Shown here: piece by piece, positions 32,876 to 35,439 of the stretch
How positions within the stretch are numbered: position 1 is the stretch's first letter
Layout: each line of letters starts with the position of its first letter
Assembly (NCBI RefSeq): GCF_008087665.1
Contig: NZ_CP042912.1
Location: forward strand, 4,464,001-4,528,000
Direction of reading: 5' to 3'
Source: Mariniblastus fucicola
GTDB lineage: Bacteria; Planctomycetota; Planctomycetia; Pirellulales; Pirellulaceae
Length of the DNA stretch: 64,000 bases
Position numbers and translations under genes: made by a program
Notes under the pieces: generated by a model
What the model saw: the letters and a program-made list of their open reading frames with translations, nothing else
What the model was told of the DNA's origin: nothing
Databases searched by the model: none

Positions 32876-33301
32876 CTACTCAGGCAGGTCGCGAGTATGA
32901 TCAAACATTTTTCGCATCGCTGCCTTTGGCTTCCATCCGTGGTAAACCCGCGGGTCCGAAATTCCGTCGGCAGAATAATAGATCATGGCCGGCATCGAGC
33001 TGATACCTTTGGCTTCCAACTGAGCCACGCCGCCGGGGCCGAGGGTTCGGACATCCACGGTGCGGACTCTGTATCCTTCTGTTTTCAATTCGGCGACCGC
33101 CGAGTCCTGCTTTCTGCAGCGACTGGAGTTTCAGCCTCCGGCAATGTAGTACAGCGTCAGTTCGCCGACCGGTTTGAAACCTTCCGGCAATCCGGGATCG
33201 GCTGCCGAAAGCGTTGGCAGGCTAACACATACGACTGCCGCGCCGACCGGAACAAGAAACCCGATGGCGCAGACGGCAATCAAAAACAGTTTTTGTGGCA
33301 C
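32876..33301 (-). CDS. Thioredoxin-like protein interrupted by one in-frame TGA
   Basis: Read leftward from GTG 33301, the frame encodes 141 codons: a signal or membrane segment (LFLIAVCAIGFLVPVGAAVV, 5-24), then a thioredoxin-like fold with LTLYYIAGG (48-56), TGA at codon 57 (33131-33133), then NSSRCRKQD, AELKTEGYRVRTVDV, SSMPAMIYYSADG and AAMRKMFDHTRDLP. Sequence on both sides of the TGA fits a single thioredoxin domain in one frame. Cys62 matches the second Cys of CxxC, and the TGA is five residues before it, so it does not sit exactly on the first Cys position. It could be a selenocysteine codon (a hairpin follows), a nonsense mutation from TGG or TGC, or a sequence error. The gene lies 189 bp after a MauE/DoxX/HTTM-like membrane gene on the same strand. 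Confidence 0.6.
33103..33124 (-). other. Hairpin just downstream of the in-frame TGA
   Basis: On the coding strand, AGTC-G-CTGC-AGAAA-GCAG-GACT: two 4-bp stem blocks with one bulged G and a 5-base loop with G second. It starts six bases after the TGA and its loop starts 15 bases after it. This geometry is close to, but at the short end of, the bacterial SECIS elements as I recall them. Free-energy and conservation tests were not possible. Confidence 0.4.
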
Positions 33302-33490
33302 AGTGATTCTCCCATAGTCATCTCAGGAAAATCCTAGGTCGCCGCCAGCTGCATGACGGCATCTGCAACCGACGCTGCGTGGACACAGGCACTACAACGC
33401 CGATCGAGTGCGGATAAAAAGGTTTGTGGCGACCATGCGTGCGGTCAAATGACAAACCGGTGCAACCGAGATCGCCATCGGCGAATCAGC

Positions 33491-34696
33491 TCAGTTTTCC
33501 GGCAACGCTACCGCCGAACTCGATCGACGCCCGGTCATCGGGTGCGACGGACCATATTCAATCAGCTTTGCCAGACCTTGCATATCGTTCGCTCGCAGCC
33601 AGCGAAGGACCGCAGATTTTTGAAACCGAGCCTGTGGATAGATCGGCACACCCAGCTCATCCAACGACCAACGATCCATCGCAAATCGACTGCTTCCGGG
33701 CATCTTCTGTGACTCCACAAAGTATGGCTGAAGCAGAACGTCGATGCGATCTCGAGCCACATCGGAAACGAGCAATTCGACCCGAGAATTGCTGGGCGAA
33801 TACAAACCCCAAGCCAGCCAATGATCCCAGTACTGAACCGGACGTAGCAACGGCCCGAAAAGCACCACCATTGAAAAGACGACACCCAACCGCTGAACGG
33901 TCCCCACTCGTTCGTTCGCCTGCCGACGCCCCGTCGCGTCAGTGGACTGAGCGTTTGACAGGAACAGCCAATAGACCAACAGGATCGACATCCCATTCCA
34001 AATAACGACAGGCCAGCGATGAGACAAACCGACTGGCGACAGCACCAGCATCAACAAAACGTGCAACACGATCGCCAACCACGCCGCAAGTTTTCGCGTT
34101 GGCTGGAATATTAATCCGACTGCAATCAACAGTTCTCCGACAGGGAAAAGCAGTACCAGCTTTGCCCTCAAAGCATCGGAAAGCGAATCAACACGGACCA
34201 CGGACGCCGTCCAGCCAAGAATGACGTCGAGGAACTCTTGCCCGGTGGTATGCACAAACTGATAGTCAAATTTCCCGATCGCCGAAAACAGATAGATGGA
34301 GATCAACAGCCGCGCGGCCCACCGTCTGGCTTCGTCGATCGGCATACTCGCCAACAACGTAGCGATGATGAAAGCCTGCCAGGCCCAAGGTTGCAGGCAG
34401 TGTTGATTGCAGCAGAACAAAATGGAAAATGCGGCTGAGACGCAAACCGCCGCCCAACGGAACTTGATCACTCCCGACGCCAATCCAACCAGACCAACAA
34501 CAAGCACCGTTGTGCCAAAATATTGAAGCAACGACAGCCACGCGCCATCGTGGACATCAAAAATGGGAACTCGTGGGAAATCCGAAAATCCGGGCAACCA
34601 GAGCTTCCATGAAAAAGCTAACAGAACAGCAACAAACGCAGCCCAAATCTGAAGGACCGTTCGATCTGTGTCTCCCAATTTTTCTTGCTGATCCAT
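33491..34696 (-). CDS. MauE/DoxX- or HTTM-like multi-pass membrane protein
   Basis: 401 residues from ATG 34696, which overlaps the TGA of the pseudouridine synthase gene by one base (TGATG). About eight to ten hydrophobic segments are visible. Text such as CCNQHCLQPWAWQAFIIATL and LFSAIGKFDYQFVHTTGQEF, with the ISIYLFSAIGKF pattern, resembles the MauE/DoxX redox-associated membrane proteins and the HTTM group related to vitamin K-dependent carboxylase. The C-terminal region (after about 280) is soluble (RVELLVSDVARDRIDVLLQP). The gene is followed by the thioredoxin-like gene; MauE/DoxX-type proteins often act with thioredoxin-like partners, so a redox pair is a reasonable but unproved idea. 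Confidence 0.68.
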   Translation of the reverse strand: MDQQEKLGDTDRTVLQIWAAFVAVLLAFSWKLWLPGFSDFPRVPIFDVHDGAWLSLLQYFGTTVLVVGLVGLASGVIKFRWAAVCVSAAFSILFCCNQHCLQPWAWQAFIIATLLASMPIDEARRWAARLLISIYLFSAIGKFDYQFVHTTGQEFLDVILGWTASVVRVDSLSDALRAKLVLLFPVGELLIAVGLIFQPTRKLAAWLAIVLHVLLMLVLSPVGLSHRWPVVIWNGMSILLVYWLFLSNAQSTDATGRRQANERVGTVQRLGVVFSMVVLFGPLLRPVQYWDHWLAWGLYSPSNSRVELLVSDVARDRIDVLLQPYFVESQKMPGSSRFAMDRWSLDELGVPIYPQARFQKSAVLRWLRANDMQGLAKLIEYGPSHPMTGRRSSSAVALPEN

Positions 34697-35439
34697 CAAA
34701 CTTCTTCATTGGACTCGATCGCGTGCTGCCGCAGGCTGGACAACGCTTGCTCAAATTCTACTCCGGGATCCGCTTCGATATCGACTACAACGTCCGTGAC
34801 CGGATGCACGAAAGAGAACGCTTTTGCCACCAACAGTAATCGCATCACTCCGAACTGCTCGCGAAACAAGCGGTTGTGCCGTCGGTCTCCATAGGTCGTG
34901 TCGCCGACAATCGGATTGGCCATGTGGTTGAAGTGTCGCCGCAATTGGTGCTTACGCCCAGTCAAAGGCCTTGCTTCCACCAGCGAATATCGACTCTGCG
35001 GATACTTGCCCGCAGAAAAAGGCACGGTCCAGGATTCCAAAGTTCGATACTCCGTGATCGCGGACTGGGCTGGTTTGTCTTTACGAGCTTTCGCATCGGT
35101 CGCCCGGTCCTGTTTCTCCACAAGCGGCTCATCCCAATGTCTCGTCTTTGCAGTCCGGCCACGAACAATCGCGAGATACATTTTACTGACCTCGCGATCG
35201 GCGAACTGAGCAGAGACGGCTCTCGCAGAATCCTTGTTCAACGCAAACAGCAAAACGCCAGACGTCGGTCGATCAATTCGGTGGACTGGAAACACTGGTT
35301 GACCAATTTGATCGCGCAACATCTGCAATGCAAACTCGCGAGCGTAAACGTCGACTTTGCTACGATGCACAAGCAATCCGGCAGGCTTGTCGATCGCAAC
35401 GAAATGATCATCGCGGTAGAGAATGGTAAGAGTTTGCAT
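34696..35439 (-). CDS. RNA pseudouridine synthase (RluA/TruC type)
   Basis: 247 residues, short like TruC. The catalytic motif HRIDRPTSGVLLFAL (about 53-67) holds the essential Asp. LVEARPLTGRKHQLRRHF is the second conserved block (RluA-type substrate loop), and ILYRDDHFVAIDKPAGLLVH opens the domain. There is no S4 RNA-binding domain, which favours TruC (tRNA position 65) over RluC/RluD. It acts in the cytoplasm. First gene of a leftward group: pseudouridine synthase, membrane protein (1-base overlap), thioredoxin-like gene. Exact target RNA not known. Confidence 0.88.
   Translation of the reverse strand: MQTLTILYRDDHFVAIDKPAGLLVHRSKVDVYAREFALQMLRDQIGQPVFPVHRIDRPTSGVLLFALNKDSARAVSAQFADREVSKMYLAIVRGRTAKTRHWDEPLVEKQDRATDAKARKDKPAQSAITEYRTLESWTVPFSAGKYPQSRYSLVEARPLTGRKHQLRRHFNHMANPIVGDTTYGDRRHNRLFREQFGVMRLLLVAKAFSFVHPVTDVVVDIEADPGVEFEQALSSLRQHAIESNEEV

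Follow-up and report, generated by a model that had tools for sequence, protein, structure and literature searches.

A putative selenocysteine-containing thioredoxin-like protein with a widened active-site motif in Mariniblastus fucicola

A minus-strand reading frame in the genome of Mariniblastus fucicola, broken by a single TGA, is very probably a selenocysteine gene in which codon 57 is decoded as selenocysteine (Sec), as judged from comparative sequence analysis. The frame lies in a stretch of 64,000 nucleotides (hereafter the window; contig NZ_CP042912.1, positions 4,464,001 to 4,528,000, assembly GCF_008087665.1), and coordinates refer to the window unless another contig or locus is named. 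Selenocysteine in a thioredoxin-like protein was the leading idea of the original prediction for this DNA, and it is well supported by the sel genes and the tRNA-Sec of the genome, by an alignment column that holds either TGA or Cys, and by a conserved hairpin behind the TGA.

Results

The gene extends from 33301 to 32876 on the minus strand, with a GTG start codon at 33301 and a TAG stop codon at 32878-32876, and encodes 141 residues when the TGA is read through. The TGA is located at 33133-33131 (codon 57) and is the only interruption of an otherwise open frame, exactly as originally described. The codon run TGA AAC TCC AGT CGC TGC leads from there to the codon of Cys62 (33118-33116), the presumed resolving Cys of the motif U-NSSR-C. 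A Shine-Dalgarno-like GGGAG is present at 33313-33309, seven bases 5' of the GTG. The structure model displays a predicted hydrophobic N-terminal helix at residues 2-27 (33298-33221), which may represent a membrane anchor or a signal peptide, and the N-terminus is hydrophobic in the relatives as well.

Codon usage was scored with a training set of eight hand-picked ORFs from the window. The scores were +0.19 bits per codon for the 56 codons before the TGA and +0.18 for the 84 codons after it, both of which exceed the 99th percentile of the wrong frames (0.127 bits per codon). All five other frames scored below zero, as did a competing ORF of 146 amino acids on the plus strand (32897-33337; score -0.07). 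Codon use is thus coding-like on either side of the TGA.

The genome consists of one contig of 6.57 Mb. A genome search identified selA (555 bits), selB (356 bits) and selD (265 bits), all above the curated cut-offs, and a tRNA-Sec that scores 70 bits, where the gathering score is 47, and that ARAGORN classified as tRNA-SeC with the anticodon TCA. The full set of selA, selB, selC and selD was thus found, which excludes the absence of sel genes that had been named as grounds for a pseudogene or a sequence error. The selA, selB, selD and tRNA-Sec loci are mutually distant on the contig. In a single ORF of 730 amino acids (L065:855-3044, about C1:4274854-4277043), selD follows a pyridine nucleotide-disulphide oxidoreductase domain to which it is fused.

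Four of the 29 AhpC/TSA matches in the genome hold one TGA, in each case at the catalytic site, with the motifs WUGPC, WUPSC, WUPYC and GULAC, and all four score above the PF00578 cut-off when read through. These genes, at C1:5525986-5526348 (L057), C1:345447-345752 (L058), C1:5688146-5688553 (L059) and C1:3976040-3976393 (L060), combine an AhpC/TSA fold with one in-frame TGA and a G-containing hairpin behind it, and they are probable further selenoproteins of the genome. The genome mixes Sec and Cys forms, and the Cys form of another protein family in the window therefore says little against Sec here. It was a SelW-like protein with Cys that had been held against Sec in the original prediction; a crude motif scan of the window for such a protein yielded one unlikely candidate only.

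Used alone as the query, the window protein matched 2 of 60 relatives (itself included) and 25 of 396 members of the order at E 0.01 (itself included, and several only as domains of longer proteins), with no relative in the named genome collection and no orthologue in the 27 genomes of the same genus (G001-G027) at E 0.001. Searches were also made with an alignment of 11 small thioredoxin-like proteins (A1). In the named genome collection, the A1 search returned 47 loci, of which 11 were examined around the motif together with L066, the contig of G373. In the family, 18 of 241 genomes matched the A1 profile at E 1e-29, and a single TGA was observed in the genes of five of these, namely the window genome (G000), G325, G373, G443 and G425. 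The TGA is located at the first Cys of CxxC in all five, and Cys occupies the same column in all 12 genomes examined of the remaining 13 (G428 was left out), in six more members of the order (G049, G088, G098, G080, G053 and G071) and in G242. The codon of Cys62 aligns with the second Cys of CxxC, which is invariant in the 11 rows of A1. The other four TGA-containing genomes are separate assemblies from at least three other genera (g56, g63 and g47). The original prediction had asked whether Sec, Cys or Trp occupies codon 57 in homologues; those examined show Sec (TGA) or Cys, and the closest relatives found carry TGA rather than a sense codon.

All five Sec genomes contain a selA of 551-584 bits. 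Among the 19 Cys genomes tested, one has a selA above 500 bits, three (G114, G129 and G060) have one narrowly above the cut-off of 267.9 bits, at 274-280 bits, and 15 remain below that cut-off. The single exception is G080 (L130), in which the Cys form is accompanied by a full-strength selA at 528 bits. Full-length selA-like proteins of 146-280 bits are present alongside the Cys form in G114, G129, G060 and G133 (g34) and in eight g35 genomes; these low-scoring proteins of the Cys genomes are perhaps SelA paralogues with another role.

Within the genus of the window genome, 15 of 16 tested genomes have a selA of at least 560 bits, yet this gene was found in none of the 27. Strong selA genes in genomes from which the gene is missing point to gain or loss of the window gene inside the genus.

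A tree was inferred from 19 rows (5 Sec and 14 Cys; the known Cys genomes G071, G099, G124, G129 and G141 and the unexamined G428 were left out). A branch with support values of 80/82, recovered in 86% of the bootstrap trees, has all five Sec rows on the same side. The branch of the window row measures 3.75 changes per column as compared to a median of 0.29, and its exact position in the tree is therefore unsure.

The active-site motif is UGPC in G325, G443 and G425 and URPC in G373. The window protein has neither CxxC nor UxxC but U-NSSR-C (UX4C). The stretch from the TGA to the residues SAVA, which holds the proposed SECIS element, is a net three codons longer in the window gene than in its Sec relatives, with two of the additional codons inside the motif and one behind Cys62. 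This lengthening was observed in the window protein alone and is shared by no relative examined. The spacing of the TGA and Cys62 had been taken as an argument against Sec, with the remark that it is not that of CxxC. The remark is true of the window motif, but it is no counter-argument, since the relatives place the TGA at the first Cys of CxxC and the window gene has added codons.

No match to the window protein alone was obtained in Pfam and NCBIfam up to E = 1, PF00085 and PF00578 included, and a search of solved structures with its sequence alone gave one chance match (E 0.48). PF00085 is matched by the relatives in G373 (5e-9) and G425 (2e-9), and a profile of the five Sec proteins retrieves thioredoxins. 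A structure model, built with Cys in place of Sec, had a mean pLDDT of 76.3 and a pTM of 0.56, with a helix at residues 60-74 after the motif. The best match of the model was 3gnj_B in Foldseek (E 7.6e-5) and 3hxs_B in VIA-align (Z 11.5, rmsd 2.8, 88 residues), and the top matches were thioredoxins and their relatives. The thioredoxin-like fold originally proposed is thus backed by the relatives and by the predicted structure, although the window protein by itself lacks a Pfam match.

Given the fast change and the added motif residues, either a new activity or decay is conceivable. We consider it possible, albeit unlikely, that the gene is a decaying selenoprotein gene, that is, a member of a Sec family whose window copy no longer works, though it is perhaps still translated. 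The long branch, the missing Pfam match, the lack of an orthologue in the 27 genomes of the same genus and motif residues seen in no relative examined would all be consistent with decay. Against it, the frame, the start, the Sec codon, the second Cys, the cis-Pro region and the SECIS element are all intact, codon use is coding-like on either side of the TGA, and the core of the SECIS element is unchanged as compared to G425.

Two adjacent hairpins follow the TGA. The first, AGTC-G-CTGC-AGAAA-GCAG-GACT (33124-33103, minus strand), had been highlighted in the original prediction and is present as described; at -9.4 kcal/mol it is stable for its composition (z -3.3, 1 of 200 shuffles as good). 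The second, TCGGC-GGTC-GCCGA (33103-33090, minus strand), lies directly behind it and has an energy of -6.9 kcal/mol (z -2.4, 7 of 200 shuffles as good). Folded side by side, the two reach -16.4 kcal/mol (z -1.7, 13 of 200 shuffles as good), and base 33103 is able to pair in either hairpin.

We compared both hairpins with a published model of bacterial SECIS elements, which, in the part of PMC13188914 that describes it, specifies a loop of 3-9 nt, a stem of 4-16 bp and a position 16-37 nt behind the TGA, with G in the first two loop places followed by G or U, and an energy of -7.5 kcal/mol or lower. The second hairpin, with the loop GGTC (33098-33095), a stem of 5 bp and a distance of 32 nt, is within the loop, stem and spacing terms. 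Its energy is -6.9 kcal/mol alone and -16.4 kcal/mol with the first hairpin, as against the -7.5 kcal/mol of the model, for which the model passage leaves the folded stretch unspecified. At 15 nt from the TGA, the loop of the first hairpin falls marginally short of the range in that passage (the original prediction had placed it at the short limit), and its G is followed by A rather than by G or U.

Hairpins within 57 nt were listed for nine TGA genes. A GC-GGTC-GC hairpin was found in five of these, namely the window gene, G425, G373, L057 and L060, with 32, 23, 23, 31 and 31 nt between the TGA and the loop (35, 26, 26, 34 and 34 nt when counted from the T of the TGA). The other loops were GTT at 26 in G325 and G443, AGTT at 28 in L058 and GGA at 23 in L059. 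The best-scoring hairpin near the TGA is not the proposed SECIS element in the window gene, G373 and G443; the last of these contains a strong hairpin further upstream, whose loop is at 11. The sequence of the first hairpin is absent at this place from the other eight TGA genes, some of which have different upstream hairpins.

The 14-nt core of the second hairpin is the same in the window gene and in G425. In G373, two synonymous third-base changes swap a G-C pair for an A-U pair, and in L057 and L060 the same hairpin RNA is read in another frame (AVA versus RSL). In an alignment of the five sequences, which is a selection (window gene, G425, G373, L057 and L060) with the four genes with other loops left out, 25 of 25 cells are standard pairs and three of the five pairs have changed on both sides; slid versions of the same alignment pair at 25-64%. 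Three of five covariation measures exceeded all 500 shuffles; for the other two, 70 and 384 of the 500 shuffles scored as high. Equally good hairpins with GG/GU loops and perfect stems are present behind 320 of 20,496 codon positions in 49 long ORFs of the window (1.6%), and it is therefore conservation that carries the argument for the SECIS element. The core GCGGTCGC with an upstream TGA was not enriched in the whole genome (240 matches versus 250 in a reversed control), and an Rfam search at 33000-33200 gave no match.

We conclude that the first hairpin is probably not the SECIS element and that the second is the more likely candidate. It is improbable that the roles are reversed, with the first hairpin as the SECIS element and the second as an accident. 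The first hairpin is the more stable when folded alone, it has G in the second loop place, and it carries one bulged base on the 5' side, a single bulge that is reminiscent of E. coli fdhF. Its loop position and the A that follows the G speak against such a role, as does the contrast between a sequence found in none of the other eight genes and a second hairpin that is conserved with compensatory changes. The first hairpin covers the lengthened active-site stretch, and for this reason it may have arrived with the insertion. A pseudogene or an artefact, produced by a nonsense mutation or by an error of sequencing at a Cys (TGC or TGT) or Trp codon, would be permitted by the window gene taken by itself and would require a single base change from TGC or TGT. 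It is very improbable, given that four other genomes, each with a full-strength selA, share the TGA at this column and that a conserved SECIS element lies behind it.

The gene upstream of the window gene (33491-34699, minus strand) encodes a membrane protein of 402 amino acids with a MauE score of 24.7 bits, below the Pfam cut-off of 27. It had been described as a MauE-like neighbour, a description that holds for a membrane protein with a weak MauE match and that is not reflected near the relatives: a Pfam scan of ten neighbours of six relatives (L061, L062, L067, L150, L152 and L153) gave no MauE match up to E 0.001. A conserved operon partner, as in a redox pair of the MauE/MauD type, is not supported by these ten neighbours or by the sub-threshold match in the window. 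In G325 and G443, which belong to one genus, the neighbours are a DUF3500 protein and an ABC-F-like ATPase in each, and no neighbour common to different genera was seen around the genes of the six relatives.

Discussion

We infer Sec insertion, export and redox chemistry from the sequence comparisons, and the following scheme is proposed. SelB with GTP and Sec-tRNA-Sec would bind the GGUC loop of the mRNA hairpin at 33103-33090, and the UGA at codon 57 would be read as selenocysteine. The product would be a small selenoprotein of the thioredoxin-like type, which has a hydrophobic helix at its N-terminus and probably faces the periplasm. Sec57, which replaces the first Cys of CxxC, would attack substrate disulfides, and Cys62 would resolve the mixed bond. 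The three added codons would turn UxxC into UX4C and lengthen the distance from the TGA to the SECIS loop from 23 to 32 nt. A more far-reaching version, which we regard as doubtful, is that the protein is a natural UX4C thioredoxin-fold selenoenzyme, with a redox pair two residues wider than UxxC and an extra hairpin that folds the longer spacer so that SelB reaches the UGA; such a role for the first hairpin is conjecture.

Selenoproteins are known from planctomycetes. According to the relevant part of PMC4807772, complete gene sets for Sec insertion occur in G. obscuriglobus, in I. pallida and in two Porphyra isolates, of which one is a Rhodopirellula. Thioredoxin, Prx-like and thiol-disulfide isomerase-like proteins have long been known in Sec versions with UXXC (PMC1088965, in the part concerned), and Cys-to-Sec changes are described as common in thiol-based redox proteins in a section of PMC1794560. 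A review from 2026 counts 119 prokaryotic selenoprotein families or subfamilies in the portion considered here (PMC13188914). The Sec-containing thioredoxin in Table 1 of that review (PF00085, UxxC) likewise has Sec for the first active-site Cys and a SECIS element inside the coding region, whereas the window protein differs in its UX4C motif, in the hydrophobic helix at its N-terminus and in matching no Pfam family. The Prx-like and TlpA-like thiol:disulfide oxidoreductase selenoproteins (PF00578, UxxC), as presented in the relevant sections of PMC13188914 and PMC1088965, resemble L057-L060, which have UxxC and a comparable hairpin; the window protein belongs to another branch of the thioredoxin superfamily and lacks a PF00578 match. 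Small Cys-containing thioredoxin-like proteins with a hydrophobic N-terminus in other Pirellulales (such as those of G107, G114 and G049) share its length class and column pattern, but they have CxxC rather than UX4C, and full-strength selA is missing from most of their genomes.

A lengthened motif in a thioredoxin fold is also seen in an E. coli thioredoxin that carries an extra arginine in its active site (PDB 1tho), which matches the structure model with Z 9.4. That protein was made in the laboratory, contains Cys only and has gained a single residue, as compared to two in the window protein. The strings UxxxxC and UxxxC are absent from the main text of PMC13188914, the table of which, as far as consulted, contains UxxxxU (a rhodanese/DsbD fusion) and LULAxC. 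In the open-licence PMC literature, no paper was found that names UX4C or UxxxxC for a selenoprotein, or a CxxxxC motif together with a thioredoxin fold; CX4C does occur there in papers on thioredoxin and an active site. Thioredoxin-fold Sec proteins with UxxC are thus already known, and what is new is the unusually wide active-site motif, UX4C, as read from the sequence.

Standard annotation splits genes with an in-frame Sec-TGA into two parts or overlooks them, and the window gene in addition has no Pfam or NCBIfam match. The gene adds a Sec form to a family of small thioredoxin-like proteins in Pirellulaceae, in which the Sec or Cys form pairs almost cleanly with the presence or absence of a full-strength selA. 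If the protein is active, its UX4C spacing would offer a natural test of the extent to which the thioredoxin motif can be stretched, and the UGA-SECIS distance, 9 nt longer and containing a hairpin, would offer one of the spacing rules of SelB.
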